Below are positions 4,775-56,259 of a stretch of 64,000 nt of DNA, piece after piece. The position numbers were made by a program, and so were the translations under genes. The DNA is taken from NCBI GenBank assembly GCA_946699065.1, contig CAMPDV010002020.1, positions 1-64,000 on the forward strand, given 5' to 3'. The stretch is from Loxodes magnus. Lineage: Eukaryota; Ciliophora; Karyorelictea; Loxodida; Loxodidae. Each line of letters opens with the position of its first letter. Position 1 is the first letter of the stretch. The notes below the pieces were generated by a model, which was given only the letters and a program-made list of their open reading frames with translations, was not told the DNA's origin and did no database searches.

Positions 4775-6170
4775 TCACTTGATGTATCTCTATCTGTCCT
4801 CAACACTCATAATAGTATTAGCCATTACGCAATTCTTAAATTATAGACCATAGTCAGCATATACCTTGCTCCAGTCAGTCTATATAATTAATTGGTAAAT
4901 TTGAACTTACCTATTATTAGTTATTAGTATCTACTCCGTTCAATATCCTTCCTAAGTTCCATCTACGAATGTTGTAGTCTTTTGATTAAGCATTGTAAAT
5001 ACTTCCATTACTTGATACCAACCAATTGTTGTCCCTAGATAATGATAAACTACCCACAGTGTCTGTATGACCCTATAGCACACAGATACACTATCCATTA
5101 GAGATATTTCATATTCTTATTGTCTTGTCATAAGATCCAGATAAGATATACTTGTTATTAGTTGAGAATATTACCGAATAGACATAAGAAGTGTGACCCG
5201 ATAAGACCATTGTACAAGACAGAGTTCGAGAGTTCCATAAACGAATAGTTTTGTCAAACGATCCAGATATGATTAAGCTTGAATCACTGGATATAGCCAC
5301 AGATAATACATAACTAGTGTGACCACTCATGGTCTTACAGGTACCTGTCTTGATATTGTAAAGTCTAAGAGTATTATCTCCACTTCCCGATACGATGAAC
5401 TCTGAATCACTGGATATAGCCACAGCATTTACATAACTAGTGTGACCACTCATGGTCTTACAGGTACCTGTCTTGACGTCCCATAGTCTCACCGTCTAAT
5501 CTGCACTTCCCGATACGATGAACTCTGAATCACTGGATATAGCCACAGATCATACATAACCTGTGTGACCCCTCATGGTCTTACAGGTACCTGTCTTGAC
5601 GTCCCATAGTCTCACCGTATTATCTCTACTTCCCGATACGATGAACTCTTAATCACTGGATATAGCCACAGCATTTACACAATAAGTGTGACCACTCATG
5701 GTCTTACAGGTACCTGTGGCTATGTTGTAGAGTCGAAGAGTTTTGTCTCATGATCCAGATACTATTAAGTTAGCATCTGGAGAGATGGCCACGGATGTGA
5801 CTGAGTCTGAGTGTCCAGTGAATATGTGAGGGTGTTCTGATGAGATTGAGGTAAAGTTGACATTAGAGAGGTCGCAGTTGAGGAACTTAGTGTTTCTTAG
5901 GTTGGAGGAAGTGAAGTTAGAGTTGGAGAAATTACAATTGTTGAAGCTGGTGTCAGATAGATCAGAGTTATTTAAGTTGATGTTTGTGAAGTTTTGTTAC
6001 GTGAAATTATAGTTCATGTAATTCAGCATTGTTATTGCGTTGGAAGCTGCTTGCTATAATTAAGGTTGATTTTTTGCTAGATTCAATATTTGAAATAGAT
6101 TTTGTTTGTTCTTTTCTGAATTTAGTTGATTTAATTCTAAACAATTTTCAGTTTTGTCATTTATTAACAT
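4775..6170 (-). CDS. Pentapeptide-like repeats plus WD40 repeats protein, intact, one intron
   Basis: The protein is 454 aa if TAA/TAG = Gln, TGA = Trp and intron 4880-4910 is removed (1396 - 31 = 1365 nt, exactly 455 codons). The start ATG is at 6168-6170 and the terminal TGA at 4775-4777. Residues ~1-60 are Gln/Asn-rich. About 60-125 are pentapeptide-like repeats such as [19 protein letters not shown]. The remainder is WD40 repeats with [19 protein letters not shown] and [15 protein letters not shown]. Two in-frame TGA codons fall exactly on WD40 tryptophans (SGS-W-DKTLRLY and DKTIRI-W-NIS), and TAA/TAG occur at Gln positions (SADQTVRLW, SSDQEFIVSG). Four nearly identical repeats suggest recent internal amplification. 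WD40 proteins are scaffolds, and pentapeptide-WD40 fusions are common in ciliates; the partner cannot be told. Upstream DNA is very AT-rich. Confidence 0.88.
4880..4910 (-). other. 31-nt spliceosomal intron in the WD40 gene
   Basis: On the minus strand the segment begins GTAAGT and ends ATATAG. Removing it links ...GVDTNNQQQ to [11 protein letters not shown] and makes the total length divisible by three. Without splicing the frame meets a TGA 14 codons later. Splice-like ends and length support the call, but there is no transcript evidence. Confidence 0.7.
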
Positions 6171-8579
6171 AATATTTATTGGATTTTTTAATATATAAGA
6201 ACAATTTATTTAATGATTTTACATCTCATTAAATATTTTCCATAGCAATTGAATATTGATCGTCTTGCTCTGTTATAAAGAATTCATTATCTATTACTAA
6301 GATAGCTCTTATTCCTTTTATATTTTGAAATTTAATTCATCTAGTTTATCTCTCACCTGAATATGATTTTTTTAACTAGATATTAGCTAACTGTTGATTT
6401 GCGAGACCTAGTTCACTAATTGATTTATACACGCTTATTGCTATTAAATTGTCTGTTTACTTTTTAAATTTTTGTCTTTTAATTTGCTGTTTTCCTCGAA
6501 AACATTCTAATTAAAATTCATAAGATTTCTGGCCTCATTTTATGCCTTTTAGATTTCACTTTACACCTTTGTAGTTAATTAGCTAAAATTTAAGTTTTAC
6601 AAATTAACGTTTCCGTCCCCTGCTTTTAATTTGTTCTACCTCTCCTGTAAATTACTTTTTTCTTATTTAAGTGACTTCAATAAATCATGTAACTCTTATT
6701 ACATGCTGAAAATTCTTGCCATTTAATAAATTTCTAAATCTTAAATAATCTTATTCACTACATGTAGTATGGCTCTTTTTAGATTTTATATTTAAACACT
6801 TAGCTCACTCTCATGAACTTATAGCATTTCTATATTACTTGCTAGTAATTTTTATTTTATGGAATTTAATAACTTTTAATCACTTTAAAGTTAAGCAGGA
6901 AATATATTAGTAATTTTGCCACAATTTGTAATTTTACATTACATTTACTTCGAAGTCTGATATTATCTTTACACGCATTCATAACACATCAAATGACTAC
7001 AAGGAAGTATTATTGGAGTCTTAACTTAAATATCAAATTCACCTTTACAATCTTAACATTAGCTTATTTCAGACATCTAAAATTTTTTTATAATTTCCTA
7101 AAAACAACCGTAATTAATAGATTAGATTAAACTCTTAAACTTAGAAATAAAATTTTTAAACACTTAAACTTCATATAATTAAAATTTATTTTTTATTAAT
7201 AAAAAAAATAAAATATAATAAAAAAAAAAGTTTATTCAAACAATCATAATCGTAATATTAATAATTGCAAATAGATAGAAATTTTAAATAAAATATATTA
7301 TAAAAAAAAATAAAAAATTAAGACATTCTTTATAATAGAAATATAGCCACGTAAAACATTAAAAAAAATTATTTCACTATAGATTAAATTTTAAAAAGAA
7401 TTAATATATTAAAATATATAAAAAAGGATACTGAATTGACTAAATATTATTCACGAAAACATATATAATCAACAAATAATTTGGTTAAAGACTTGATAAA
7501 CAAATAAAGACTTAACAATCCCTTTAAAAAATAAAAAAAAAATAAAAAAAATAATTGTCATATTTTAATTTAATAATTAATGATTTAAAATAATAAAAAT
7601 TTAATATTTTTTGATATAAAAATTAATAATAAATTAAAACTTAGCTTGGTAAAAATTATCATATGTATAGATACTGAAAGAATTAACATGAAATTTTGAT
7701 GAACAATACAATTTTACTTTAAAAACAATAATAAAACAAAACAAAATTTTTGAAGAAATATTAATATTAAAATCGAAAAAATTTAACATTTATATGCAAA
7801 CATATCTAATTAAAGAAGATGCTCCAGAAGAAGATGTTATTAAAAATCAAATACAATTTTAAAGAATTATTTATTTATGCAAGTGAAATAATGCGAAAAC
7901 TATATTGTTGTATTTAAAAATATTTGAAATTTAAATATAATAAAAAACATTAAAAAAAATTAATTTTATTTAAAAAAAATCAAGTGAATTAAAACTTTTT
8001 AAATAAAATAGCATTTACATTTTTTAAGATAATATATCCAAAAAATGTTTGATTAAAAAATTAAAAATCATTATAATTATAAATATATACATTAATATAA
8101 AAATATAAAAGTATAAAAAACTAAAAAATTTTATAAAAATAAATAAATAAAGAACGATATCTATTATTCATGACATATTTATTAACTTGAATAACTTATT
8201 ATATAAATAAATACAAATAAAAATATAAATTAATATCCTTTATTTCCGTAATGAATTTCTTTGAATTTGTAAATTTTACGGATACGATAAAATAATTTTC
8301 GTTACTAGAATCATATTTAGCAAAGAATAATCCTCATATATTACTATACTACAATTAAATATACTTAAATTGAATATGCATAATGTAAATGCGGATGTTT
8401 GTACACTCTATTATTAATTATCAATGAAAGTTATAATTCAGCAATTCTTGACTGAAAACTAAACGAAGAAAATTTAAAGAAAAAAACCTCGGCCCTGTAA
8501 AAGAGGTAATGTAAAAGAAAATTTAGCAAAGAGATTATACAATATAAGATGTTAGGTTAGAAGTAGAAAACATTTTAAT
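6171..8579. other. AT-rich intergenic DNA, no gene recognised
   Basis: Extremely AT-rich, with many A-runs and T-runs and no motif I can tie to a protein family in any frame under the deviant code. The part next to 6171 should contain the WD40 promoter, but no element can be named. Confidence 0.6.
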
Positions 8580-15559: not shown

Positions 15560-16695
15560 ATCTAAAATGTCGCTGAATAGAAATTGTAGGATAATCTTCT
15601 AAAAATTTAAATAGAAATTTGAATTTGTATAAAGAATATTTAATAAGAGGAGTGGATATAATAGTTGTCTTGCTTAAATTTTATTGCTTTTTAAAGTATT
15701 ATTATTTATAAAATAAAAGGAATGAGGAGAACTTTTCTAATTAAAAGAAACTATAATCTAAACTCACTGTTTTCTTACTTTTGTTCCATTTTTATCTGCT
15801 TCGCTTTATTAATCCTCTTATGAGATATCTGACTAATCAAAGAAATCATATATTTCAGCTTTTAAAATATTAACTTAATCTAACAATATAGTACAGAGAG
15901 ACAGCAGGATAGAAAAATTTAGTTTCGATGGAATATCTTTAAAAGTTATTCCTGGATTTTCGTCTCTAAAGCTGAAATTAAAGAGAATATTAGAAAAAGC
16001 AACTTTCAGCTATTAGTGACCATACTAAAATTTAATGGTAGTCTTTATTGTATCAATCTCCAAAGTTACTATTTCTCCAGAAATTATAACTCTTTATCCT
16101 CATCTGCTTCATTTATTTTTATTTACTAAATTTCCATTATTTGTAAGAGCAAACCCTTGGTCATTCTAAGAAAACTTTATCATTTCATTTCTTCAGTCTA
16201 TTTTATCTTCAGTGATTCCAATTTCAATATTCCCTCTATAAACAAACTTTATTTAAAATTAGTATCTATAAAAATATCCTGCTTTGATAGGTTGATTTAA
16301 AAGAGCAGATTTATTATAATCAGTGTTACTTTTAAGAGTTTTATTGTTTAAAATTGAATATATCTGCATGATTTTTTCTTATCAAACACTGCCTCCAATG
16401 TTTCCCAAATTTAATTTTCATTTTATTAATTCTCACTAAAATTTCATTCTAATGGCTAATTAAGCTAAGATTCTTCTTACTTTTTTAAATCTTGCTCAGG
16501 ATTTGCAAAGTTATAAACATAATCATAAAATCAATTTCCTTCGTAAACAAAAACTAAAGTTCCCAAAACTAAAACTATTAGAACAACAATACTAAAAATC
16601 TTTATTTTTTGGTTGCTTTATTCTTTTTCTATTTCCTTTTTTAAGAATTCTTCTTATCCTTAATTAAAAGATGATGAATAAGTGTTCTAAAGCAT
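15560..16695 (-). pseudogene. Decayed partner of the SPRY-repeat membrane protein gene
   Basis: Minus strand from ATG at 16693-16695: the same N-terminus and transmembrane segment (FSIVVLIVLVLGTLVFVY) as 53155-55665. A one-T deletion relative to the intact copy near 16357 (IQFLNN region) shifts the frame. After TTIKFQYGHQQLKVAFSNI the sequence jumps to SFRDENPGI, so most of repeat 2 is gone; both points are equivalent positions in the repeat, which implies repeat-to-repeat recombination. Homology ends near 15560 in repeat 3. Several TGA Trp codons of the intact gene remain TGA here. Confidence 0.85.
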
Positions 16696-16924
16696 TTTAT
16701 TATGAAATTAGATTATTCAAAACTATGAATAAACTATAAAGTAATTACTTTATAATAAAAGTATTATCTTATTAATATATAGTAATAACATCATAATCAT
16801 TTATCACTCATTTCCTTATACACTCTAATAGCTTTATTTAATTCTTTATTCTTAAATTATTTTATTTTATTCTATTCTTTAATAGTTTATATAATAATAA
16901 TAATATTAATTTATTTTTTCAATA

Positions 16925-17240: not shown

Positions 17241-17244
17241 TTAT

Positions 17245-18172
17245 GTTTTCCGTTTTAGGGATTTTCAACCACGTCAGGAAGACATCAGTTCATGCTCCCT
17301 GCTGTTAAACATAAAAGCTCGGATTACCCAATTTTAACGAGATTCAACTCGAATTTTTCCAGGTTTTCCCTCCTCTAATTTGCCTTGGCATCATCTTGAT
17401 CTTGTAAATTTAACCATCCGGATTATAATACACTCTTTTCATTCTTGCTTCTTCTTTTTTCTTCTTTTTTTATTCTTTTATCCAATAGTTTCTTTATTTC
17501 TATTAGAATTTCTTACACTTCCAATAAAAATATCATACGCTTCCATAGTAGAAACATTTCTTTTTTATTTTTAATTGATTTTTCTTGATGGGTTTGCTTT
17601 TTTAGGCTTCGATTTCCATTTGTATAGCTTCACTTTCGCTTTGATCTTCCTTAATGTTTACATCTTCTCATCTATTTTTCCGAGTCTGTTATCTAGTTCA
17701 CTCTGCTACTGAAGCTAATTTTAGGATTAGACTTTCTATGTTTCAAAAGGTGCCTAGTTCTCTTTCCTAGGACATGAGCCTTACTCTATTCCTTCTGTTA
17801 GGTTAAGTTAATGTACTAGCTTCTCATTGTCCTTCCTTAGCTTTTTGTCTTCTTTCTGGAGGTTTAGTACAACTTTAATGAGCTGCTCCATGCTCATCTG
17901 GTCAGAAGGGTTAAACTCTGAGATCTCCTGATGCAAGGCAGATTTCACCTGTTTTCTAGGCTTCTTCTCCGACGTTGGAGTAAGCACATGTATGCTTTTC
18001 TGAATCTGTTTCCTTTTGTAGCTCTATTATATTCCAGGTTGTTAAGATTATTAAGTAAAAGGTTAAGATTAGGTGTAAGAAGATTGCCATATATTTACTT
18101 CTGGCTTCCTCTCCTTCTTCGAGGAGATAGTATAAAAACCCTTTTTGAAGGTTTCCATTTTTAATTTGATAT
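17245..18172 (-). pseudogene. Gag-like ORF1 unit (arm partner of 52020-52955)
   Basis: Minus strand 5' end at 18172: ATGGAAACCTTCAAAAAGG, then the hairpin CTCCTCGAAGAAGGAG, the block ALHQEISEFNPSDQMSMEQL, LNLQEEVKxLxKDNEK, RLMSxER and a Lys-rich tail. The 3' end is the GTTGAAAATCCCTAAAACGG block, then (AATT)n before the family B insertion. It is the inverted-duplication copy of the unit at 52.0 kb. Frame breaks between N-terminus and coiled coil make it non-functional as read. No reverse transcriptase. Confidence 0.75.
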
Positions 18173-23806: not shown

Positions 23807-24271
23807 TATAGAGCGAGTAGCACTCTTGTTGGTGCGTAGCTCTTTAAATTAATTTTATTTAATGTCGAAAAAATATTTTATTGGTCTCTCTATATTGTTT
23901 TCTCTTCATGCAGTACATCCCTATAATTTTTCCTTCCAAAGTATAGGATGCAATATGCGATTACGGGTACATTTTCCCGACCTATGATGAAGAAAGTTTC
24001 CTTCTAGCATTCAGAGTAATCCAGCTTGTCGCATCTTCCTCTTCTTGTTATTGGTTTCTCTTCTTCCGATTTATCCTCCGTCCGCGCTCATTTTTTTTGT
24101 TGCCTTGCTGGCTGGAACTGTTATTACTGCATTTTTCACTCCTTTTCCTAAATATACTTCAGCTGTCTCTTTCATTTTTGTCAAAACCATCGATAATATT
24201 TCTTCTGCATGAAATTTCTTCTCTTCGCCTCCAAGTAGCATCCAAAGGAGAGGGCTTTGCACCCTATTTAA
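23807..24271 (-). mobile_element. SINE-like family C copy carrying an Hsp70 fragment
   Basis: Minus strand: AAATAGGGTGCAAAGCCC start, GGATGCTACTTGGAGGC, then a 117-bp segment absent from the sister copy at 45441-45780, then TGAGCGCGGACGGAGGATAAATC and the 3' hairpin GAGCTACGCACC...GTGCTACTCGCTCTATAAT. At 465 bp it is longer than the 340-bp sister by almost exactly the extra segment. Confidence 0.85.
24110..24226 (-). pseudogene. Hsp70 exon fragment inside a SINE
   Basis: Thirty-nine codons on the minus strand read [20 protein letters not shown], then [19 protein letters not shown]. This is the Hsp70/BiP nucleotide-binding-domain segment around residues 110-150 (family [20 protein letters not shown] and NAVVTVPA). 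The frame is open and well conserved, but nothing of Hsp70 precedes or follows. It is in the sense orientation of the SINE. Origin: capture of host mRNA sequence by a SINE, or loss of the segment from the sister copy. Confidence 0.88.
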
Positions 24272-29677: not shown

Positions 29678-31530
29678 ATGGATTAGTCATAATCAACTTC
29701 CACTTAAGATTAAATTATTCCCTAGTAATTATTAAGAACTTAATCTCATTGCAATGTTTAAGAGTATAACTAATCATAAATCTATCTATTATAATCGAAG
29801 AATGTTCTTTGATGGCATTGAAAAAGCATAATATTGCTAAACTCATAACTAAGAACTGTGCAAAGATTGTAAATAGCAAAATCATCAAAAACGCGAAACT
29901 TCTGAAATTCAAAAAATTTTTGAGGAACTACAGAATAAATTATAAACAAAAATAAAGGAACTAGAAGATCAGAAAACTTAACAAGAACAAAATCAGCAAA
30001 AGATTTTTATAATTTATAGAAATTAGTTTGGTAATAAGAAAATCTCGCTAGAAATGATTTAAATTTACTTTAAAGAAGAATTATTAATGACATTTAAGAG
30101 TTCTTTACAGTAAAATTTTCAAATCTATCTTTAGATAAAAATAAAATTATCAAAGAAGAAAGAAAATTAATATAGCAATAAAAAATTGATTTTTAGATCA
30201 TAATAGAAAGTATTAAATAGTACAAATTTAGCAAAATTAATGATATTAAAAATCATTATGAAAATATTGAAAAAATATTAAAAAATAATAACTAAGGGCT
30301 GATTTAAAATATATAAATAAAAGAGCATTAATAGATTGCTTAAGAAACTAGCGAAGAATTAATCTAATTTATGATTGAAAATTATTTAGTTTAAGATAAT
30401 AGAAAGGAAGAAATGAAAAAATTTCATAAATAAATGGAAAAAAATTAATTAAAAAATAACTAAGAATCTAATTAATATAAGAAAAATTCTTAAGTAGAAA
30501 ACCAAGCAAAATCTATAAACAATGAATAAAAAACCAGAAATTAGAGCAAATAATAAAATTCTTTAATATTATAAGAAAATAAGCAACTCATAACTAAAGA
30601 AAGAAAAACCTTATTGGAAAAGCTCGATGATTATATAAAAGTAAATTATATTTAGAATATTCATAGATTTGGGTTTAGGTCTAATCAATTTCATACCTAT
30701 TGCTACGAAAAAATTTATATAAATGCATATAAACCGATTTATAAGCTCCAAATTATCATAGAAGTATTTAACATTAAGAGAAATTCTATTTAATCGGTGG
30801 AGAAGTTTCGAATAGTTAAAACCAAATCGAATCAAGTAATAAAGTATATGAAGTGGATTATGATGGTAGATCCAAACAGCTATCAAATCTTAACCAAGCT
30901 AGAAGCAGTTGCGGAGTAAATGTAGCAAAAGATACCATCTTCGTAGTAGGAGGAACTTTCTTTAGCTAAAGCATTCCTTAAACTAATTAGAATAAAAAAT
31001 GCATTGATAACGTAGAAAATTTGGATATCAAAGGAAACAATAGATAAAAAATTTGTTCGTCTCTACCAATAAAACTGAGAAACATGACTTTAGGAAGTGA
31101 CAAAGAGGAAGAAAATATTTATTCGTATGGAGGAGCATATGAATCGTATAAATCAGCAAACTTAATTTATAAATACAATATAGAGAAAGACAATTGATGC
31201 AAACTTGATTTATAACTTCCAGAAAAATTATGTAACGCGGCAGTTTTAGTCGAGCCATTAGTAGTTTTTGGCGGTTAAAATTGATAAACTCAGCAATAAT
31301 TGAATAAAAGTTGAATCTACAACCCCGAGAAAGCAAGTAAGAAGAAGGAGCACTCCCTAGTTTTATTTGCTTTACACCTGCGAAAATAAAAGACAATTTA
31401 TTTATGCGTGAATATGAGTAAATGGTACAAACTATTACTAAGTAATAAAAATATATTACACTAATAAAAAGGGAGAAATCATATATAAGTCTCTAAATAT
31501 TACTATGAAAAATTTTTAAAATCCTAGTAC
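29678..31530 (+). CDS. B-box zinc finger, coiled coil and Kelch repeat protein (ends uncertain, perhaps broken)
   Basis: Three in-order blocks on the plus strand: a B-box (YCQTHNQELCKDCKQQNHQK, about 29840-29900), a long Lys/Gln/Asn coiled coil to ~30600, and Kelch blades at about 30740-31350: KFYLIGGEVSNSQNQIESSN, KVYEVDYDGRSKQLSNLNQA, DTIFVVGGTF, ENIYSYGGAYESYKSANLIY, EKDNWCKLDLQLPEKLCNAA and LVVFGGQNWQTQ. Trp in DNW and QNW is TGA. This TRIM-like order is widespread in ciliates; partner unknown. The putative ATG (29678), the B-box and the Kelch part lie in three different frames, so there are either short introns or frameshifts; I could not decide which. No convincing stop after the last blade; the frame also shifts near 31350. 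Confidence 0.72.
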
Positions 31531-37431: not shown

Positions 37432-38260
37432 AAAAATGTCGAACCTCCGAAAGGAATTCTTTCCAGCTCCAAAGAACTAGGAGGCTGGCGCCTAACAATA
37501 GTATTAGGAAGCAAATAAACCTTCAAAAACTACCCATACTGCGACAACTCCCGCCTCGGAAGAGAAACCGAGGAAGTAGGCCAAGTCTATCCTACATCAG
37601 GAGGTCTCCGAATTTAACCCTACTGGTCAGATGAGCATGGATTAGCTCGTCAAGGTGGTGTTAAAACTCCAGGAAGAGGTTAGAAAATTACGAAAGGAAA
37701 ATGAAAAGCTGACTGAGCAGATTTAACAAGGGCTTTAGGATACTCTAGACCATAGAATGGCCAATTAGGAAAGAAAGTTCACTACTCTCTGAAATTATTA
37801 AAAAGATCAACAAAGTCAGACTAACTCCTAAGTAAAGAAGATTTAGGACTAAAATTAATTCCTTGAAAACATAATATAGAGCCAATAAAGCCAATGGAGT
37901 CAGCTGATTCCCTAGCATAATAGAATGGACATTGAAAATGAAAAGATTTACTTAAGGACGATAGTAACATAATAATAGAACTGAAAACCTAAAAAGCGAT
38001 GTTACTTTTGTAAAAGTAGTTATCATCTGCAAAAAAATGTAGATAATTTCAATAATTTAAAAAATAATACTGACTTAGAGATACAAAGAGCTCAGAGGCT
38101 ATGATGTGATCGAGAAGGGAGAATTTTCAAGCGTAGAATTACTGTAATGTAATCAGCTATAGAGCAGGAAATGCAAGGAAGAGAAACTCAAGACCATTGG
38201 TAGAGAAGGACTAAACTTTTACACCATTATTTGAACAGCGGATATGATTCTGCTGTTAAA
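37432..38260 (+). pseudogene. Gag-like ORF1-only unit
   Basis: AAAAATGTCGAACCTCC start; SYIRRSPNLTLLVRWAW in one frame, or the conserved block PSYIRRSPxLNPTGQMSMDQL in the shifted frame; then coiled coil VLKLQEEVRKLRKENEKLTE and a decayed knuckle KKRCYFCKSSYHLQKN. The 3' part has a TTGAACAGCGGATATGATTC stretch and TTAAATAAATTAAAT tail. Frame is broken around the knuckle. Same family as 40.6, 44.8, 46.8 and 52.0 kb. Confidence 0.65.
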
Positions 38261-40599: not shown

Positions 40600-41500
40600 A
40601 TTTTCTCCTCTTCATGCTGGAAACCAGATTACTTCCGGTATTAAAAATAAAGTTTTAAAAGTCTCTCTTCCTCTCTCCTCCTATTGCTCATGACATTTCA
40701 AATTCTATCTTAATTTCTAATCAGATTTTCTCTTGTAGATAAAACCTAAATAATTTAAGTATAATCTCTCTGATTTGTTCCTACTTCATTTTTTTATCTT
40801 CCTCTACTGTGCTAGTATTCTTCTTTATTTATTCCAATAATACGTCTTGAAATTTTGGAATTTATTGCTGCGTCTTCACAAGTGATTTGTCGAATTGCAG
40901 TAGTTGCATTTCTTCAATACTTTTTTGATGTTTAATCTTAGTCTTCCTGTTGGTCGATCATCATTGGATCTCTTCTTAGTTCGTCGAGCTTCTTTTCTAA
41001 TTTATCCAATCTATTACTCAGATCAGTTTGTTTCCAAACTAATTTTAGGATTAGTTATTCTCGCCTTAAGATATCTTTCAGAAACCTCTTTGTTCTATTT
41101 CTTAGGACATAAATCTGGATTCTATTCCTTCCACTAGGCTGTTCCATAAGTTTCTCATTATTCTCAGTTTCCTAATCTCTTCCTAGAGCATCACTTTGGA
41201 GAGCTACTCCATGCTCATCTGGCCAGAAGAATTAAATTCTGACACCTACTGGTGAGAGTAGACTTCATATTTTTTGGTTTTTCCCCGATGTACTTATTAC
41301 GTGCGTCGCTTTCAAGGATTTCTTCTGTTTGTCACATCCTGCTTGAATTCGAGGTTATTAAGAAGAAGGTTAAGAAAAAGAGGACTGACCAAGATTGGAC
41401 TGAGGTTTGCTCTCTAACTTTTTGGAGGTGGTGTTTTGTTTTTGAATCCTTCCATTTTTTTAATTTATTTGGAAAAAAATTAGAATACATAAAATATAAA
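40600..41500 (-). pseudogene. Gag-like ORF1 unit, inverted twin of 44.8-46.0 kb
   Basis: Minus strand: QGVRIQFFWPDEHGVALQS-type frame or the alternative SDxxELNSSGQMSMEQLSKV, then EEIRKLRIMRNLWNSLAEG-ESRFMS and coiled coil QTDLSNRLDKLEKKLDEL. 3' end TACCGGAAGTAATCTGG...GAAAATGCTCGAAAATTG. Over about 900 bp it is almost identical to the plus-strand twin, differing chiefly by the 340-bp SINE insertion in the twin. A long antisense standard-code ORF here is a shadow. Confidence 0.75.
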
Positions 41501-42153: not shown

Positions 42154-43990
42154 TTATTGAATCCTGTCTATCTTTTCGATACACCACTTCTTTGATTCTA
42201 TGTCTTAAATATCTCTGTTGATAACATGTCGTTTCTATTATTCTTTCTATCTACATTCGAACTTATATTCTATCCAAAACTACTTACTTTCTCTTCGTAC
42301 TATGCTGTCTATAACAAATTGTTCATATTGTTCGTCTGTATTTCCATATTCCTTGTTTATATCGCTTATTCTGGTTTAAAAGACCTGTCTTTCATCTAAC
42401 TCTGTCATATCAATTACTTTGCTTATGCTTCTCTGTATTCTCCCTTTTAAGCTTATTAAGCAGCTTTTATTCTCGCATTATCCGCTATCACTTCCATATT
42501 AATATTTTACTCTGTTTTGAGTATACGTTTTGTTACTACCTATTACTAAGTTAAAAGTCTTATACATTTCATTCCTTCAAGGGTGTGACATTCTATGGCT
42601 AACTAGAAAGGTACTTTCTCAAGCTCTTTCTTCCTTTTTTTGCTTTTGACTGTATACTCGAATGTGATTAGAGTATCCTGATTAGCATTTCCTATATAAC
42701 CACTCTCGATCCTTCCAATTATAAATATTCTTCGTTTCTGAACTTTAAAAGTTATGTAGAGTTAAAGAAGCTTTCACATTAGTAGCAATAACAGGAGTAA
42801 ATAAAATATTTGAGAAATTATTATGAATTTAAGTAGGATCAACTTTGTTTATTTCTCCTTTCGTTTACTCGACTAAAGGAATTAAGCTTTCCAATTTGCA
42901 TTCTTATCCTTAAACGCTGATAATAGAAATTTCGATTCCTTTACTATTGGTCTCTTCAGCACAACTCACATAAAAGTCTTCTTTAATTTCTTCTAAATTT
43001 CCTAGACCGACATTTTCAATTCCATCAGTACAAATTATAACTTTTCACCATCATTCAGTCGATCACCTATAATTATTTAAGGAACTTAAGTTCAATCTCC
43101 AATTATTTAAACTTCTCCAGAAAAGGAAATAAGTCCTACATGTCTATTAGAGTTATTTGTGACATATTTTTTAGTTATTTATCTAGAGCAGCTTAAACGC
43201 ACTAAAGTCTACTGATATCAATTACGTTATCCTAGTAAAAACTAAGGTCCGTCTTAAGCATTTTATAGCTTCCTTAATTCAGCTAAAGGATCAACTCGTA
43301 ATTATATTTATTCCTTCACTGCTTAAGTTACACCCATTGATCCTGATACATCTATAACAAACAAAATACTTATATCATCTTAGCTTTTATCAATTACTTA
43401 CTAAGGACTTTCCAAAATATAAGTTAATTACTCTGATTTAGGAATTTCTTCTTACTCAAGCTGAATAATATTTAGACTTTCACAAAACCCGCAATTTCAT
43501 TCATAAACATCTTGATTATAAGTACCTTTTATTTAACTGCATACATTTAGAAAAGATTGGCAGGATTTACATTTCACAGGATCACCAGTAGCTATTGTAG
43601 CTTCTCGAGACAGAATGTTCAATTTAATACTTACTACATTAGTATCTACTACTTATTTATGTGTTTTTCCGATTTCTGCTATTTGAGGTACAGGTTAATA
43701 AAATTTTACATACTACTTGTTAAAAGATTGTTCTTCTTATCTGTTCTTTTCTGAAAAGTTTTATTGCATTTAATTCTCAGTTTTAGGATATTACATTTAT
43801 TTTGATTACTTAAAGTAAGCAGTTTATTTCATTTAGTGATTTGAGGCAAATTATTAATCTTTATTTAGAGAGAATTTACTTAGATTGAATCTAGACTGAT
43901 TCAAGTTAGCGAATTTCTGAGCTTCATTTTCAATAAAGTTACTTTTATTTTCTTCCAATGAATTTTTCCTAAATTGGATTATATTTGAGA
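42154..43990 (-). pseudogene. Sec23-type zinc finger plus von Willebrand A domain protein, internal deletion
   Basis: Minus strand: Gln/Asn-rich N-terminus, VVSIKLNILSREATIATG, then zinc finger DPVKCKSCQSFLNVC...YEWNCGFC (C-x2-C...C-x2-C, Trp = TGA, about 43585-43455), linker EQEEIPKSEQLTYILESPQQ, vWA MIDAS strand DDISILFVIDVSGSMGVTQA (about 43375-43320), VGLISFSGEVQIIGDWTQVP, IICTDGIENVGLGNLEEIKE, GIEISIISVQGQECKLESL and VIATNVKASLTLHNF. Compared with the ciliate vWA family, about 60-70 residues between QIIIGDRLND and the CTDG strand are missing, together with a one-base frame change, so the domain is probably dead. The start is uncertain (ATG at 43832 is one option). The first plausible end is TAA at 42154-42156, not TGA. 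Confidence 0.75.
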
Positions 43991-44789: not shown

Positions 44790-46035
44790 ATATGGAAGGA
44801 TTCAAAAACAAAACACCACCTCCAAAAAGTTAGAGAGCAAACCTCAGTCCAATCTTGGTCAGTCCTCTTTTTCTTAACCTTCTTCTTAATAACCTCGAAT
44901 TCAAGCAGGATGTGACAAACAGAAGAAATCCTTGAAAGCGACGCACGTAATAAGTACATCGGGGAAAAACCAAAAAATATGAAGTCTACTCTCACCAGTA
45001 GGTGTCAGAATTTAATTCTTCTGGCCAGATGAGCATGGAGTAGCTCTCCAAAGTGATGCTCTAGGAAGAGATTAGGAAACTGAGAATAATGAGAAATTTA
45101 TGGAACAGTCTAGCGGAAGGAATAGAATCCAGATTTATGTCCTAAGAAATAGAACAAAGAGGTTTCTGAAAGATATCTTAAGGCGAGAATAACTAATCCT
45201 AAAATTAGTTTGGAAACAAACTGATCTGAGTAATAGATTGGATAAATTAGAAAAGAAGCTCGACGAACTAAGAAGAGATCCAATGATGATCGACCAACAG
45301 GAAGACTAAGATTAAACATCAAAAAAGTATTGAAGAAATGCAACTACTGCAATTCGACAAATCACTTGTGAAGACGCAGCAATAAATTCCAAAATTTCAA
45401 GACGTATTATTGGAATAAATAAAGAAGAATACTAGCACAGTAGCACTCTCGTTGGTGCGCAGCTCTTTAAATTAATTTTATTTAATGTGAAAAAATTTTA
45501 TGGATCTCTCTATCCTTGCTTTCTCTTCCGGCAGTAAGTCCCTTTAATTTTTCCTTCCAAAGCATAGGATGCAATATGCGATTAAGGGTACATTTCCCCG
45601 ACCCATGATTAAGAAAGTTTCCTCCTGGCATTCTGAGTTCTCCAGTTTGTCACATTTTTACTCTCTTTTTACTTAATTCTTTTCCTCCGATTTATCCTCT
45701 GTCCGCGCTCATTTATAGTTGCCTTACTAGGCCTCCAAGCAGCATCCGAAGGAAAGGGTTTTCCACCCTATTTAAAAATTAAATAAAGAAGAATACTAGC
45801 ACAGCAGAGGAAGAAAAAACAAATGCAGTAGAGACAAATCAGAAAGATTATACTTAAATGATTTAAGTTTCATCTACAAGAGAATATTTGATTAGAAATG
45901 AAGATAGAATTGGAAATTACAGGAGCATAGGGAGGAGAGAGGAAGAGAAACTTTTAAAACTTTATTTTAATACCGGATCAATCTGGTGTCCAGCATGAAG
46001 AGGAGAAAATCCTCGATAATTGTTAAACTTAATTT
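44790..46035 (+). pseudogene. Gag-like ORF1 unit interrupted by a SINE
   Basis: Plus-strand twin of 40600-41500: block ELNSSGQMSMEQLSK (about 45005-45050), LAEGIESRFMS, QTDLSNRLDKLEKKLDEL, RRDPMMIDQQED, then the SINE at 45441-45780, then the C-terminus and the 3' block TACCGGATCAATCTGGTGTCC...GAAAATCCTCGATAATTG with a CTATTATTATTATT tail. Without the insertion the unit is about 900 bp, normal for this family. No zinc knuckle recognised. Confidence 0.75.
45441..45780 (-). mobile_element. SINE-like family C insertion with 24-bp target-site duplication
   Basis: The 340-bp insert is bounded by AAATAAAGAAGAATACTAGC-ACAG at 45417-45440 and again at 45781-45804. The inverted twin at ~40810-40840 has a single copy of that sequence and no insert. 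Read on the minus strand the insert begins AATTTTTAAATAGGGTGG and ends at GTGCTA of the 3' hairpin; the last bases of the hairpin are missing, probably because of microhomology with the target (GTGCTA). Confidence 0.93.
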
Positions 46036-46784: not shown

Positions 46785-47735
46785 TTTTCCATTTTAGGGA
46801 TTTCCAACCCCGTCAGAAGGATAACATTTCATGCTCCCTGCTGTTAAATATAAATGTTTGGGACGTCCAATTTTAGCGAGATTGGGAACTCTGGTTTCTC
46901 CAGGTTTTTATTCCTTTTACTTGATATGGTTCCATCTTGATCTTGTATATTGAACCATCCGGGTTGCAATACATTCTTTTCATTTTTGCTTCTTCTTTTT
47001 TCTTCTTTTGTTATTCTTTTATCCAATAGTTTCTTTATTTCTATTAAAATTTCCAACACTTCCGATAAAAATGTCATACGCTTCCACAGCAGAAACATTT
47101 CTTCTTTATTTTTAATTATTTTCCTTGATTTGTTTGCTCTTTCTAGGCTTCGATTTCCATTTGTATAGCTCCAGTTTCGCTTTGATCTTTCTTAATGTTT
47201 ACATCTTCTCATCTATTTTTCCGAGTTTGTTATCTAGTTCACTCTGCTACTGAAGCTAATTTTAGGATTCGTTAGTCTGACTTTGTGAGATATTCCAAAA
47301 GGCGTTAAGATCTCTTTCCTAGGACATAAGTCTTGACTCAATTCCTTCTGCTAGGTCTAGCTTTGCCATCAGAATATCATTGTCCTTCTTCAATCTCTTG
47401 ACCTCTTCCTGGAGGTTCAGTACCACTTTGATGAGCTACTCCATGCTCATCTGGCCAGAAGGGTTGAACTCTGATACCTCCTGGTGGAGAACAGAATTCA
47501 TCTTTTTTCTCGATTTCTTGCTTGAATTTCGAGTTTCTGTGTGTATATTCTTCAAGGTTGGCTTTCGTTCGTTTTCTTAGATTCTAAGTTGTTAGTTCAG
47601 TGTTGGTTAAGGTTGTGATAGAGAAGATTGTTAAGATTATTAAGACTTGGTTTCTGTTTCCTCCCTTCCTTTTTGGCTTAGGAAGAGGTATAGAAGCCTG
47701 ACTTGAAACCTTCAACCATTTTTTAATTAACTTTT
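46785..47735 (-). pseudogene. Gag-like ORF1 unit
   Basis: Minus strand: AAAAAATGGTTGAAGGTTTC start (MVEGFKSGFYTSS-type), hairpin-containing 5' part, SELNPSGQMSMEQLIKVVLN, LQEEVKRLKKDNDILMAKLD, LAEGIESRLMS, then a Lys-rich tail and the 3' block GACGGGGTTGGAAATCCCTA ending in (ATT)n near 46770. Very close to the 52.0-kb unit over the coiled coil. Antisense ORFs of 66-84 codons here are shadows. Confidence 0.75.
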
Positions 47736-48880: not shown

Positions 48881-49380
48881 TTGGTTTTATGATAAAAAGA
48901 AGGTTTTCCTAATATAAAAAAGTGAATATAATAAAATACAAGGTTAAGATCTTTGAAGTATATAATCTTAATTTGGTTATAATTAATTAATTAATTAACG
49001 TAGGTCTGCCATTATAGGCAATCCAGTTATTAATGTTTTAATAAGGTAGTCTTGATACTCTTTTCTCCTTGTTTTAATTCACAAATGTGAAACCTTCTTC
49101 TCTCTATTCTTGTGATTCTGTTTAAGGCCGGAGTTGAAATTCTTAAGGAATTTTCATTTTAGTACAAATGTTACTCTTGAGTATCTTTTATAGTTCAAAA
49201 TCTTAGTTTATTTTTGCCTCAGCTATGCCTTGCTTTCCACCAAGCTCCTATCCAAGTTGACGGCATAGTGAATAGGAGAGCTTCTGAGGCGCGGACTACA
49301 GAATAAGATTCGCTTTTTCTGATATTGAGTCTCAAGCTAGAGATTAGCTTAAGACTCACCATCCATATTTTAAATAATAT

Positions 49381-49806
49381 AATAAATAAATAAAAATGAT
49401 TATAGAGCGCGTAGCACCTCATTGGCGCGCAGTTCTTTCAATATTAATATTTAATATTAAAAAATGTTCTCATGTTTCTTGTTAAATTCTAGAGGTCCGA
49501 TGAGTCATGTCAGCTTCTCCAAATGGGGAATCTTCTTATTAAAAAATTATTCTAAAATCTTGAGTCAAATGCTTCATTCTTCTTGAATAAGGTCCAAATA
49601 AGAGACAGTTATTAAGTCGGTAATTAGAAGGCCCATCAGTCAAATTTTCATATTGCTAGAGAGAACCCTCGGGGTAAGTTAGGTACGTCTCAACAGAGCT
49701 TATCCACTCTTCCCCGTGGTGGCATCTAGTGCGAGATTACTCACAATGCAGTATACACTGCACCAGATTACCTACTAGTTTGCTGACGCGGCAGACATCC
49801 ATTTTA
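49381..49806 (-). mobile_element. SINE-like family A insertion in right arm
   Basis: Full family A element in minus orientation: 3' tail AATAAATAAAAATGATTATAG and hairpin at the left, ...GACATCCATTTT 5' end at the right. The left arm at ~19480-19500 has the empty site (TATTATATTATTTAAAATATGG), giving a short target duplication of about 8 bp (ATATAATA). Confidence 0.88.
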
Positions 49807-50444
49807 TATAATAATATTTAAAGTAAAACTATCTATTTATATGATAATAGTTAATTAAGTAATTTAATTATGTTAAAATAGTAAACTTATAAAGCATAAA
49901 TAATTATATAAAGGGTGATTGCAGTTAAAATAAAATCTGTATTGATGTTAGAAATAATAAATTAAATGCATTTAATATCCTTTTGCTAGATATGCTATTT
50001 TATAATATTTATAATTATTTAATCTTTAATCAGCTTTTATATATTTTAATTGCTTTTAAGTCTATTTTAATTAAATATTTTTAATAATAAAATAACAAAT
50101 AATTTCTTCATAGACGTATGAGAAGATAAAATGAATAAAGAAGAAATAATTATATCTTAAATTTAAAATAATTTAGATAGAAATAAATAAGAAAAATGCA
50201 TTTAGTTTATAGCAAAAACTAGAAAAGCAACAATTAGAAAAATATATTTAAATATCTTAATTTTTAAATGAGAGAACTCTATTTAATTTACCTTATCAAA
50301 AATAATAAGCTTTGAATTTTTAAGCAAGTATTGAGGTAGATTATTTGCATAAGTTTTTTAATTTTAAATTGCTTTAAATTTAGATTTTAATAACTAGATT
50401 GAAATATTTTATAAAGAAATAATACAAACTAAAATTAAAAAAAA

Positions 50445-51305
50445 AAGTTGAAAAGCTTTGTTAAAGCCTTAGTAGTCAGCCATCTGACCTATTCTATCAG
50501 CTTGTCTCCATTAGTTCGTCTTGAATTTCTACTAGGCTTAGTTAGGCGGTGTAGCACTTCATTAGCGCACCATCCTTTAATACTCTGAATAGTCTTCATC
50601 TTGAATGTAGCGTTCCTAATTATTTCTCCAAGGATTAAGATTTGAATTAAAGAATTTTTTTCTATAAATTTTTCCGCTTTATGTTGGATATATCCTAAAT
50701 AGTTTTCTAAAAATATCTTATTTATTCTTTCTTTAAATTTCGCTTAGTTAGTAGCAGTATTTTCATTGGTGTTATTTATTGCACACGTAGCATTTTATTC
50801 TTCTTTTAACCTATTATTCCTGTAACACTTATTTAATTTAAATTTACTACTTATTTTAAATAAACGTTTACTGTTTATTTTAATTTGAGGCTTCATTTTC
50901 TATTTCCATAAAATCTGATTAATTCTGTTAAATCGAAAATGGCGTAACCTGAATTTGTTATTAAATTTAAAGAATTCTTTGTTCCAGTTTGTCTTCTATT
51001 TCTTATGATTATTAATATTGTTTCTCAAGTAAAGACGTTATTAGTTTTTCTAATTTTTCTACTTTATCAGTGAGGTATCTATTTTTAAATATAAACTCTT
51101 TTAATGACTTAGATAATATTTCTATTTAAGTTTGTGTCGGAAGTTTTTTTAATTCTGGATTTCCAAGTGGTTAATGTTCGTCATATCAATCATATTTCTC
51201 ACTTTCACTCATTGTAATTATTTCGCTTTTTTATTTTTTAGAGAATTTTCCTGTTTAAATGTTTTGTTCAAAGTTCTGTTATTTCTTAGAAGCCATTTTA
51301 TATAT
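50445..51305 (-). pseudogene. Gag-like ORF1-only unit carrying the SINE-type 3' hairpin
   Basis: Minus strand: TATAAAATGGCTTCTAAG start (MASKKQQNFEQNIQTGKFSK), coiled coil, knuckle IKCYVCNKQHQWKYC (C-x2-C-x3-H-x4-C, Trp = TGA, near 50790), then towards the 3' end GGTGCGCT-AATGA-AGTGCTACACC, the same hairpin plan as SINE families A and C. Absent from the left arm at ~18870, where the flanks join directly (GAGTTATTATTTTAGTTTG). Ends with a run of T/A. Some frame breaks. Confidence 0.72.
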
Positions 51306-52019
51306 AATATAATAACTCTTAAAATAATACTAGCTGATACTTTACTATCTAGCATTTAATTATATATTTTACATTTATATTTAATTATTTTTAATTAAAT
51401 GCCTATTATAAAGATAATAGCTAAAGCTTAATTTATTTTATAGCTTAGATGCTTAAAAACAAACAATTAAATTATTTATTCCTTTGCTCAATCTAAGATA
51501 TTAAAGTTATAAAAATAATTAAGAATGAAAAAGCATAAATTTCAATACTAAACTAACTTGTTAAAGTAATAAGCTTATTAGTAAAACTATTAAGATTTAT
51601 AAACATTTGCTGTTTGCTTTAAAGCTATCTAATATATTAAAATTACTAAATTTTTACTAGCTAAAATTTAATTATTCTTAGATTGTAAAATGAACCTAAA
51701 ATAATTAATAAAACTAATAAATTAAAATAAATAATAATTATAAGTACAAGAGTGCATAAACTATTCTTTATAGTTATTCTTAATTATTTTAATTATATAC
51801 CTAACTAATAAGAAAATTGCTTTTAAGTTTTGATAAAATAAGAAACATTTAGAATATTTAATAAAGATAATAATTTATCTTTTAAAAGATTAAGCTAATT
51901 TTATTTATACTTAGATCTTTGTTGTTCTATTGTAAGTTAGTTACCTTTTAGATAAATATAAAGCATTTATACAAAATCTATTTATATTTTAGTATAAATT
52001 AATAAATATCAAATTAAAA
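51306..52019. other. AT-rich part of right arm, no gene
   Basis: Matches 18173-18880 inverted. No coding or structural signal beyond that. Confidence 0.6.
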
Positions 52020-52955
52020 ATGGAAACCTTCAAAAAGGGTTTTTATACATCTCCTCGAAGAAGGAGAGAAAACCAGAAGTAAATATAGGGCAATCTTCTT
52101 ACACTTAATCTTAACCTTTTACTTAATAATCTTAACAAACTGGAATATAATAGAGCTACGAAAGGAAACAGACTCAGAAAAGCATTCATGTGCTTACTCC
52201 AACGTCAGAGAAGAAGCCTAGAAAACAGGCGAAATCTGCCTTGCATCAGGAGATCTCAGAGTTAAACCCTTCTGACCAGATAAGCATGGAACAGCTCATT
52301 AAAGTTGTACTAAACCTCCAGGAAGAGGTCAAGAGATTGAAGAAGGACAATGATATGCTGATGGCAAAGCTAGACCTAGCAGAAGGAATTGAGTCAAGAC
52401 TTATGTCCTAGGAAAGAGAACTAAGCACCTTTTGAAACATAGAAAGTCTAATCCTAAAATTAGCTTCAGTAGCAGACTGAACTAGATAACAAACTCGGAA
52501 AAATAGATGAGAAGATGTAAACATTAAGAAAGATCAAAGCGAAACTGGAGCTATACAAATGGAAATCGAAGCCTAGAAAGAGCAAACAAATCAAGGAAAA
52601 TAATTAAAAATAAAGAAGAAATGTTTCTACTATGGAAGCGTATGACATTTTTATCGGAAGTGTTGGAAATTTTAATAGAAATAAAGAAACTATTGGATAA
52701 AAGAGCAAAAAAAGAAGAAAAAAAAGAAGCAAGAATGAAAAGAGTGTATTATAATCCGGATGGTTAAATTTACAAGATCAAGATGATGCCAAGGCAAGTT
52801 AGAGGAGGAAAAACCTGGAAAAATCCGAGTTTCCAATTTTTTAAAATTGGATGTTCCGAATTTTTATATTTAACAGCAGGGAGCATGAACTGCTGTCTTC
52901 CTGACGGGGTTGAAAATCCCTAAAACGGAAAACATAAATTAACATTATTATTATT
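52020..52955 (+). pseudogene. Gag-like ORF1 unit, arm partner of 17245-18172
   Basis: ATG at 52020 gives METFKKGFYTSPRRRRENQK. After a frame change: VLTPTSEKKPRKQAKSALHQ, EISELNPSDQISMEQLIKVV, LNLQEEVKRLKKDNDMLMAK and LDLAEGIESRLMS, a heptad coiled coil. A Lys-rich tail follows, then the 3' block GACGGGGTTGAAAATCCCTA and (ATT)n. The N-terminal segment and the coiled coil are in different frames; an intron between them (GT near 52079, AG near 52150) is possible but unproven. No zinc knuckle or reverse transcriptase. Confidence 0.75.
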
Positions 52956-53154
52956 ATATAAACTATTAAAGAATAGAATAAAATAAAATAATTTAAGAAT
53001 AAAGAATTAAATAAAGCTATTAAAGTGCATAAAGAAATGAGTGATAAATGATTATGATGTTATTACTATATATTATTAAGATAATACTTTTATTTTATAA
53101 AGTAATTACGTTATAGTTTATTCATAGTTTTGAATAATCTAATTTCATAATAAA

Positions 53155-55665
53155 ATGCTTTAGAACACTTATTCATCATCTTTTAACTAAGGATAAGAAG
53201 AATTCTTAAAAAAGGAAATAGAAAAAGAATAAAGCAACCAAAAAATAAAGATTTTTAGTATTGTTGTTCTAATAGTTTTAGTTTTGGGAACTTTAGTTTT
53301 TGTTTACGAAGCAAATTGATTTTATGATTATGTTTATAACTTTGCAAATCCTGAGCAAGATTTAAAAAAGTAAGAAGAATCTTAGCTTAATTAGCCATTA
53401 GAATAAAATTTTAGTGAGAATTAATAAAATGAAAATTAAATTTGGGAAACATTGGAGGCAGTGTTTGATAAGAAAAAATCATGCAGATATATTCAATTTT
53501 TAAACAATAAAACTCTTAAAAGTAACACTGATTAAAATAAATCTGCTCTTTTAAATCAACCTATCAAAGCAGGATATTCGTATAGATACTAATTTTAAAT
53601 AAAGTTTGTTTATAAAGGGAATATTGAAATTGGAATCACTGAAGATAAAATGGACTGAAGAAATGAAATGATAAAGTTTTCTTAGAATGACCAAGGGTTT
53701 GCTCTTACAAATAATGGAGATTTAGTAAATAAAAATAAATGAAGCAGATGAGGATAAAGAGCTATAATTTCTGGAGAAATAGTAACTTTGGAGATTGATA
53801 CAATAAAGACTACCATTAAATTTTAGTATGGTCACTAATAGCTGAAAGTTGTTTTTTCTAATATTCCCTTCAATAATATTACATTTTATCCAGTTATAGC
53901 AATAAATGATGTGGGTGATTAAGTAAAATTAGTGAAAGCCGAAGTAGCAAAAAGTGCCATGTCAGTTAAAAGTAAAGCATATGAAGAATAAAGCAATCAG
54001 AACTAAAAGCCACATCTAACAAAATAATGAAAACCTTTTGAGTCAATTTTTAGTAAAAAATACAGTAGCAAATATCTTAAATTTGTAAATAATTAGATTA
54101 TTAACAGCACAGTTTAAGAATTCTAAACTGCCATCATAGACACTCCAATTATCACAGGACTTAAATATAAATTTCATTTTAAGATAAAGTATCAATACTA
54201 TCAACAATTATATTTAGGAATTACTAATAATATTAATAATTGAAAGTATAATTTATCTTTTGCTTGATATGAAGGAGGATTCGCTTTATAGTCGAGTGGA
54301 TAAATAGTAAATAATGCCTAAAACTTAAAATATTCAAAAAAATAGGCTTAAAGTGATGAAGTTGTAGTAATGGAAGTGGACACAATAGAAGGAACTATCA
54401 AATTCAGCTTTAGAGATGAAAATCCAGGAATAGCTTTTAAAGATATTCCATTTGAAACTAAGTTTTTCTATCCTGCTGTCTCTCTGTACTTTATTGGAGA
54501 TTAAGTTAATATTTTAAAAGCTGAAATATATGATTTCTTTGATTAATCAGATATAGAATAAGAGGAATAAAACGAAATAGATTAAAATGGAACAAAAGTA
54601 AGAGAACAGTGGGTTTAGATTAAAGCTTCTTTCAATTAGACAATTTCTCACCATTTCTTTGAGTTTATAAATAATAATACTTTAAAAAGCAATCAAGACT
54701 TAAGCAAGACTGCTATTATATCCACTCCTCTTCTTAAAGGTTTTTTGTACAAATTTAAATTTCTAGTTAAATTTTTAGAAGAGGCATGAATTTAAATTGG
54801 CATTACAGAAAATAACTAAAATTGGAACTAAGAAAACTTAAGATTTAGTCATTATAAATCTGGATTCTCTTTAGACGATGATGGATGGCTATAAAACAAT
54901 AAAATCTCCTTGAAGTACTCTTAAAAAAGTTTAGCTTAAAGAGAAGAAGTAATTATGCTTATTGACACATCTAAAAATTAATTAGAATTTTAATATGGAA
55001 GCATATCTCCAGGAATTGCGTTTATAGATATTCCATTTAACTCAAATACTTTTTATCCTGCAATTTCTATGCATTATCAGGAAGAAGAAATTTAAATTTT
55101 AAGTGCAGAAAAGTAAAAATAAAAAGAGATAAACAGTTCTATGAATGAGTGGAATGAATATAAGCTAGAGTTTGATAAAAACTTAGCTAACAATGATTAT
55201 GAGATAATTAATAAGAATACTGTTAAAAGTACTATTAATAGCTTTAAAACTGCAATTGCTAACTAATCTTTTTAATAGGGATTCAAATATAGAATTTAAT
55301 TCTAAGAAGTTACAGCAAATTTGGCGATATTTTAGATTGGAATAACTGGAAACAATAAGGATTGAAAAAATGAAAATATTAGCTTTACATGGTATTCTAG
55401 AGGATATTCATTAGAATAAAATGGAAACATTAAAAATTTTGGAGAAGAGTACAAATATTCTTCAAGAAGCATACCATCTAACTAAATTGTAACAATGGAA
55501 GTCGATACAGTAGACAAATATATCAGATTTATTTTTGGAAACTGAAGTCCAGGAATTGCTTTCAGAAATATTCCTTTTGATCAATTTATTTTTTATCCAG
55601 CTGTCTCTGTTTACTACTACCCAGACAAGATAAAAATACTAAAAGCGGAATCTATGAAGCTGTGA
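53155..55665 (+). CDS. Single-pass membrane protein with four SPRY-like repeats, intact
   Basis: ATG 53155 to TGA 55663-55665 is 2511 nt = 836 aa, in one frame when TAA/TAG = Gln and TGA = Trp. N-terminus MLQNTYSSSFNQGQEEFLKK, transmembrane helix at ~40-58 (FSIVVLIVLVLGTLVFVY), acidic Gln/Asn linker, then four ~180-residue repeats. Each has FxYKFKF...IGIT.NN.NW..E...FS.Y..GFAL, then VTMEVDTxxxxIKF...PGIAFKDIPF, then FYPAVSxY...VxILKAE, which resembles SPRY/B30.2 (GDxVxxExD...FYPAVSLY). Ten Trp codons are TGA, for example NNWKY, FAWYEG, KDWKNE and GNWSPG, while sister repeats have TGG at equivalent sites (QNWNQE). Single-membrane topology would put the repeats on one side; ligand unknown. The left arm has a decayed partner. 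The terminal TGA is followed at once by TAA. Confidence 0.9.
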
Positions 55666-55669
55666 TAAA

Positions 55670-56259
55670 CTTATTAACTCTTAGTCCCTTCATACATATA
55701 TTAAGATATAAGCTTTAATAATCATTCAATCTTATTTCATAATAATTAAATATAAAATTTCTCTTAAATTATAATATTTTAATTATAAGATAGAATCATC
55801 TAATACTTTCTTATTTAGCTATTTTAGCATAACTCAGAATTAAAACTATTAGCTTAATAATAAATATTAATTAGTAAAGCTTTATCTATATTAATTAAAG
55901 CTAATTATTTATATTAAGTACTATTTTTATTTTCTAAGTTAAATTCTTAATATTTATAGATTAATTCTAAGAATTTTAATTTCATTCAAAATAGTCCCAT
56001 TAGCTAAATATTAATTAGAATCTAATAGCTAAATTTATTAAAAAATTATATTATATGCAACAAAAGAGAAGATAATCCTAGTAAATTTGATAGAAGATGT
56101 GTCTCTTTTAAAGATTATACCAAAAGTAATAAGTTTCATAGTTATAAGAAAGATTTATAAAAGAAATTGATAAACTTAAATTAATAAAATATTAAATTCA
56201 AATTTAGCTGAAAAAAGAAATAAAAAAGATATTTAATTTATAAAAAATGATAATTATCT
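55670..56259. other. 3' flank of the SPRY gene, AT-rich
   Basis: The first ~340 bp match the left arm (15.4-15.55 kb) in part; after ~56000 there is no match and no gene. Confidence 0.5.

Follow-up and report, generated by a model that had tools for sequence, protein, structure and literature searches.

The SPRY-repeat gene

The window, by which we mean the whole stretch of 64,000 nucleotides that was analysed, is macronuclear DNA from a karyorelict ciliate of the genus Loxodes, most likely L. magnus. Its SPRY-repeat gene, the codons under study and a decayed relative of the gene are placed as follows.

53155..55665, + strand: SPRY-repeat gene, four SPRY stretches, 836 codons plus stop
53317..53319, + strand: first internal TGA of the gene, codon 55
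53656, 53740, 53749, 54028, 54241, 54265, 54787, 55363 and 55543, + strand: start positions of the other internal TGAs
55663..55665, + strand: terminal TGA of the gene, placed by eye, with AT-rich sequence downstream
15595..16920, − strand: decayed partial copy of the gene together with its upstream flank; an internal part and the 3′ part are missing and there are small frame-breaking gaps

When the codons of the SPRY frame were counted, we found 44 TAA, 13 TAG (57 together), 11 TGA and 6 TGG, with ten of the TGAs inside the gene and one as its last codon. These counts agree with the original prediction of 836 codons, ten internal TGAs and a terminal TGA. The gene probably ends at 55663..55665, judging by eye from the AT-rich sequence that follows, and 40 codons separate the last internal TGA from this terminal one. 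The Pfam SPRY profile matched four stretches with a score of 108.3 bits, and because all four share a single frame they were taken as one gene. By eye, a candidate membrane segment was likely at about codons 33–51. It had been argued that the frame stays open only if TGA is read as tryptophan. The frame is indeed continuous under NCBI table 27, but its openness proves nothing, since that table contains no codon that is always a stop and every frame is open. Nor was TGA depleted in the SPRY frame, which had 11 compared with 6 to 33 across the other five frames.

Of the internal TGAs, all of which had been said to sit where Trp is plausible and several to have TGG at the same place in a sister repeat, half had such a TGG counterpart. 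By eye, five of the ten (codons 168, 292, 363, 371 and 737) share a repeat column with a TGG of a sister repeat: codons 168, 363 and 737 pair with codon 557, codon 292 pairs with codons 97, 486 and 666, and codon 371 pairs with codon 746. The SPRY profile, on the other hand, did not favour Trp. When ten residues were tried at the TGA positions, W gave the lowest score (108.3) and Q the best (125.2). The same happened with the six true TGG codons, where replacement by Q, R or S raised the score to 115.3, 115.9 and 114.2, respectively, so the profile is uninformative on the residue encoded by TGA because it also prefers other residues at real Trp codons. In the decayed copy, a TGA lies opposite the TGG of the gene at codon 486 and another lies opposite the TAA at codon 84.

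Other TGA-containing families in the window

The original prediction also pointed to TGAs at Trp sites in other gene families, for which the following features were examined.

4799..6248, − strand: WD40-repeat gene with seven WD40 stretches and three TGAs inside repeats (Pfam and structure alignment)
30721..31356, + strand: Kelch-repeat coding stretch with three TGAs (Pfam and structure alignment)
42712..43796, − strand: coding stretches that include a zinc finger resembling that of Sec23/Sec24 and a VWA-like start, with a TGA in EWNCGFC
37471-37806, 41079-41309, 44938-45165, 47269-47730, 52111-52473 and others: ORF fragments of the W-PDEHG or zinc-knuckle type

The WD40 and Kelch residues were checked by alignment to solved structures with the stop codons masked as X, and the results refer to the chains displayed. 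One of the three WD40 TGAs, in RIW, was opposite Trp throughout the displayed alignments and occupies a canonical Trp position. The TGA in SGSWDKT, named along with RIW as an invariant Trp site, was mostly opposite Asp, and that in GYVWSV was opposite Trp, Arg or Thr. A similar division was found for Kelch. The TGA in DNW was opposite Trp in each of the displayed chains extending over this site, of which there were four, but the one in QNW, also proposed as Trp, was not, and the third TGA was likewise not opposite Trp in the displayed structures. The zinc knuckles had been predicted to carry TGA in CWRC-type motifs; CW.C was present at 38976 and 61148, but position 50790 reads CYVC.

Two family assignments were not supported by Pfam. 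The Sec23 zinc finger scored 21.6 bits, below the Pfam cut-off of 25, and no Sec23 structure was matched; these coding stretches continue in another frame, for which a short intron may account. The proposed ADH product had no Pfam match for the two pieces tried. Taken alone, the window gave mixed and altogether moderate residue evidence that TGA means Trp.

Related ORF fragments with W-PDEHG or a similar motif and the zinc-knuckle ORFs are probably pieces of retroelements, and Pfam gave no match for the two that were tried.

TGA aligns with tryptophan across the genome

The meaning of TGA was further examined genome-wide using protein kinase domains. The 40 best of 136 scored domains were used, and TAA, TAG and TGA were translated as X before aligning. 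Each codon with at least five sites was then assigned from the other residues in its columns, with no codon permitted to vote for itself. The results revealed that TGA was assigned to W with a score of +59.0 from 21 scored sites, compared with −2.7 for the runner-up, Y, and −55.8 for Cys. TAA (169 sites) and TAG (93 sites) were both assigned to Q, a residue whose own codons the same method missed. Overall the method inferred 53 of 59 sense codons correctly. The six failures were AGA, ATG, GAT, TGG, CAA (assigned to E) and CAG (assigned to K, with Q second), and they arise in part because self-voting was barred.

The distribution among columns was consistent with this assignment. In the three kinase columns with a Trp majority we found 20 of 29 TGAs and 56 of 76 TGGs, compared with one of 175 TAAs and none of 96 TAGs (Fisher p = 2e-47, a value that ignores the relatedness of the sequences); the other nine of the 29 TGAs lay outside these columns. 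The best Trp column of the 40 kinases (for example in CDVWSAG), which we take to be the kinase-fold DxW motif, contained 27 TGG, 10 TGA, 3 Tyr codons and neither TAA nor TAG. At least one TGA was present in 20 of the 40 best domains.

Similar results were obtained with actin. Across six TGA-holding loci, seven of 12 TGAs were opposite a Trp of a conventional actin from the same genome, although Trp occupies just four of the 377 positions of this reference; the remaining five were opposite Q, G, F, V and E. Gln was the residue most commonly opposite TAA (17 times) and TAG (nine times), and several TAA and TAG codons were also opposite Gln when eRF1 was aligned with the human protein. The expectation that Trp would be enriched among the residues facing TGA was thereby borne out in both the kinase and the actin columns. 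About 40 full-length actin matches had near-equal scores and no TGA, and diverged actins have TGA at Trp sites.

TGA at conserved gene ends

To see which codon ends genes, we looked at proteins with conserved C termini. In histone H4, TGA followed directly after the conserved GFGG in nine of nine genes found. Five of the seven actin loci fetched could be aligned to the last residue, and all five then had TGA after KCF or KCY; at one other locus, L082, the alignment stopped short of the end. Both eRF1 genes had TGA after DEDFL, with a second in-frame TGA three codons further on, and they contained no internal TGA but 20 and 21 TAA/TAG codons. Altogether, 16 of the 17 conserved ends examined (nine H4, five actin and two eRF1 genes among them) were TGA.

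The one exception was L083 on C193, a diverged actin-like gene. It could be aligned to residue 375 of 377 and then read ACT TGT TAA, so that KTC and TAA stand where actins end in KCF. No in-frame TGA was found within the 31 codons fetched past this TAA. It is possible that the TAA is a stop, or else that the protein has a C-terminal extension.

Tandem arrays of tRNA-Trp genes with a shortened anticodon stem

The original prediction expected a tRNA-Trp(UCA) that would read TGA. We searched the whole assembly of 705,730,643 bases with a pattern made of the D arm and the anticodon loop in which either CCA or UCA was permitted. There were 130 matches, and all 100 that were listed had CCA; the reversed control gave none. 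Two further patterns specific for UCA had no match in 706 Mb. These patterns presuppose a standard D arm like that of tRNA-Trp, which a divergent or mitochondrial gene could escape.

From four fetched stretches 79 tRNA-Trp genes were extracted. The anticodon stem had 4 bp instead of 5 bp in 76 of the 79 tRNA-Trp(CCA) genes, the top pair (positions 26 and 42 along the gene) being mismatched as A.C in 47 genes on C67 and as T.C in 29 on C148. Two single genes on C110 had a full 5-bp stem and one further gene lacked its 3′ part. The 4-bp genes formed two tandem arrays.

C67:482300-491368: tandem tRNA-Trp(CCA) array, A26.C42, unit about 187 bp
C148:155441-168962: tandem tRNA-Trp(CCA) array, U26.C42, unit about 241 bp

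In the C67 array 48 units, each defined from an anticodon-arm anchor, were compared. Substitutions were absent from the tRNA itself, where the sole difference was a 1-base gap in a single copy. Of the 142 spacer columns, by contrast, 70 were variable, including 39 with substitutions. The C148 array is hardly informative about selection because its spacers barely vary (two of 170 columns). By eye, T runs of the kind expected for Pol III terminators lay downstream of the array genes, and the tRNA-Lys and tRNA-Ala genes that were seen had 5-bp stems.

In a whole-genome search for the tRNA family there were 63 matches; tRNA-Lys was present at each of the 11 loci that were scanned, accompanied by tRNA-Ala at two of these. 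Family-search matches on C103, C158 and C78 were regularly spaced (about 527 and 1752 bp), and the scanned C103 and C78 loci were tRNA-Lys, indicating that tandem arrays of tRNA genes are not unique to Trp. The 4-bp tRNA-Trp of Loxodes has already been reported (PMC13092985, PMC12005148). Our literature search found no account of tandem 4-bp tRNA-Trp arrays or of the Loxodes eRF1 residues within the library searched, and papers beyond it may exist.

Two eRF1 genes with altered stop-recognition residues

The suggested search for changes in eRF1 found several. Two diverged eRF1 genes, L002 and L003, are located 35 kb apart on C196. The best match in a protein search was the eRF1 of Loxodes striatus, to which L003 was identical at 431 and L002 at 415 of 436 residues. 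As Loxodes is placed in Karyorelictea, this identity marks the host as a karyorelict. Compared with human eRF1, L002 carries S70A, E55A, T58R, S60Q and Y125F and retains GTS, NIKS, Cys127 and Phe131; L003 is identical at these sites, so that S70A, E55A and Y125F occur in both copies. A protein search gave 7,982 homologues; in the 120 with the highest scores, Ser70 was replaced by Ala in four, including L. striatus and Blepharisma stoltei, and Glu55 by Ala only in L. striatus. In Blastocrithidia, a Ser70Gly change in eRF1 has been linked to UGA readthrough (PMC12153298), and Swart 2016 states that single eRF1 changes show no simple mapping to genetic codes (PMC4967479). Because UGA is the main stop codon in Loxodes, any weakening caused by S70A must be overcome at gene ends.

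The genetic code, its possible mechanism and the alternatives

Collectively, the alignments confirmed, at the level of sequence, that TAA and TAG are read as Gln and that TGA is read as Trp inside genes and as stop at their ends. The karyorelictean code put forward in the original prediction is therefore supported, with TGA aligning with Trp, TAA and TAG with Gln, and TGA ending 16 of 17 genes. This dual meaning is already in print and is not new here. NCBI table 27, with UAA and UAG as Gln and UGA as Trp or stop, is stated as the code of Loxodes and other karyorelicts (PMC11441545), and the same assignments, with UGA as Trp inside genes and stop at their ends, are given for Parduczia (PMC4967479). 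In L. magnus, UGA is described as Trp when sufficiently distant from the poly(A) tail, coding UGAs as depleted in the roughly 20 codons upstream of the stop, and 3′-UTRs as short, with a median of 41 bp (PMC11441545). We found no difference between the host and the table 27 code, save for the one possible TAA end of the actin-like gene.

We observed directly what TGA means in alignments, that it stands at conserved gene ends, which tRNA genes are present and which residues eRF1 carries. The explanation we prefer, with very high confidence, is the Loxodes table 27 code; in its most likely working, a 4-bp tRNA-Trp(CCA) would read UGA in competition with an altered eRF1, and the end of the mRNA would decide the outcome. 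Internal UGA would be decoded by tRNA-Trp(CCA) that lacks the top pair of the anticodon stem, leaving 4 bp rather than 5, and that is encoded by genes amplified in tandem. The eRF1, altered at the stop-recognition residues (S70A, E55A and Y125F), would by default release weakly, and close to the mRNA end, where the 3′-UTR is short and poly(A) is near, it would prevail. By analogy with published work on relatives, the 4-bp tRNA may be what reads UGA, the eRF1 changes may weaken termination, and poly(A) proximity may decide between stop and sense. Swart 2016 proposed that the transcript end and poly(A) proximity permit termination (PMC4967479).

One alternative to this explanation is the code of Tetrahymena and Paramecium (table 6), under which TGA is a stop only and the genes with internal TGAs are pseudogenes or sequencing errors. 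It draws some support from the decayed copies in the window and from the repeat-rich nature of the L. magnus genome (PMC11441545), but decay would have no preference for Trp sites, whereas the TGAs in half of the best kinase domains cluster at Trp columns as TGG does and TAA and TAG do not. We regard it as extremely improbable. Even less credence can be given to recoding of UGA to selenocysteine or cysteine; UGA has the former meaning elsewhere, but the kinase test set Cys far below W, and a TGA in 20 of 40 domains also speaks against it. The Condylostoma code (table 28) would make TAA and TAG regular gene ends as well. Its sense meanings are identical to those of table 27, heterotrichs are the sister group of karyorelicts (PMC11441545), and L083 may end in TAA. 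Against it, TAA or TAG accounts for at most one of the 17 conserved ends, a small sample, and we consider this code very unlikely. In its favour, a few karyorelict transcripts may reportedly stop at UAA (Seah 2022).

Another alternative concerns the tRNA rather than the code. Instead of the 4-bp CCA tRNA, a tRNA-Trp with the cognate anticodon UCA might decode internal UGA, whether it is encoded in the nucleus or comes from mitochondria by import. Such a tRNA is the ordinary solution for reading UGA, and it is encoded in sequenced ciliate mitochondria (PMC4967479). The absence of matches to both UCA patterns in 706 Mb, each of which needs a D arm resembling that of tRNA-Trp, argues against it, as does Condylostoma magnum, for which Swart 2016 reports that a nuclear UCA gene was not found and that there was no significant anticodon editing (PMC4967479). 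We judge this explanation unlikely, although less so than the table 28 code.

The machinery of the preferred explanation, table 27 with a 4-bp tRNA-Trp(CCA), resembles that reported for other organisms. In Condylostoma magnum, as in Loxodes, all 64 codons can be sense, position decides the ends (PMC4967479) and the top of the anticodon stem of tRNA-Trp(CCA) is described as unpaired; unlike in Loxodes, where 16 of 17 ends examined were TGA, all three stop codons are said to terminate genes. The T.C mismatch seen in the C148 array has been reported from both C. magnum and Amoebophrya (PMC12005148). In Amoebophrya ex Karlodinium veneficum the U26.C42 mismatch is given for one of seven tRNA-Trp(CCA) genes, compared with mismatches in 76 of the 79 genes extracted from Loxodes, where they lie in tandem arrays and include a second type, A26.C42 (PMC12005148). 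Blastocrithidia is reported to share with Loxodes a 4-bp tRNA-Trp(CCA) with the same pair unpinned and a changed eRF1 position 70 (PMC13092985, PMC12153298). The change there is Ser70Gly, whereas Loxodes has Ala at 70 together with E55A and Y125F (PMC12153298). The codes are also described as different: in Blastocrithidia UAR is Glu and UAA is stop, while in Loxodes UGA is still the stop.

That one codon is both sense and stop in the same cell contradicts the textbook rule of one meaning per codon, and the dual use of TGA shows that position in the mRNA can decide what a codon means, as already published for Loxodes. Our analysis adds a view of the machinery from the side of the genome, with amplified arrays of 4-bp tRNA-Trp genes beside 5-bp genes and an altered eRF1. 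The changes in this eRF1 affect Ser70 and Glu55 even though it mainly has to act at UGA. The combined picture makes the competition model testable. More tentatively, and with somewhat less than even confidence, we speculate that the balance between reading and stopping is set by gene dosage, with the 4-bp arrays (A.C and U.C at a single shared pair, one array free of substitutions while its spacers drift) on one side and the few 5-bp genes together with a duplicated eRF1 weakened at Ser70 and at Glu55, a residue conserved elsewhere, on the other. If so, eRF1 would be weak at its main stop codon and every termination would depend on the mRNA end.

Other observations in the window

The window was segmented with a hidden Markov model of codon frequencies that strayed off-frame, and Pfam results for its 30 proteins were mostly empty, which is not evidence of missing genes; a log-odds scan gave the correct frames for known genes. 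An Rfam scan and ARAGORN gave no matches across the window.

A large inverted duplication relates 15390-19999 to 48884-55982 on opposite strands. Identity over its principal segments is about 82 to 97%, and the decayed copy of the SPRY gene lies within it, along with ORF fragments that recur. A fragment of HSP70 of about 39 residues was found at 23981-24259 (− strand) within another ORF. The first part of the window (1-2487) is a satellite of 80-bp units in about 31 copies with an extreme skew of C over G.
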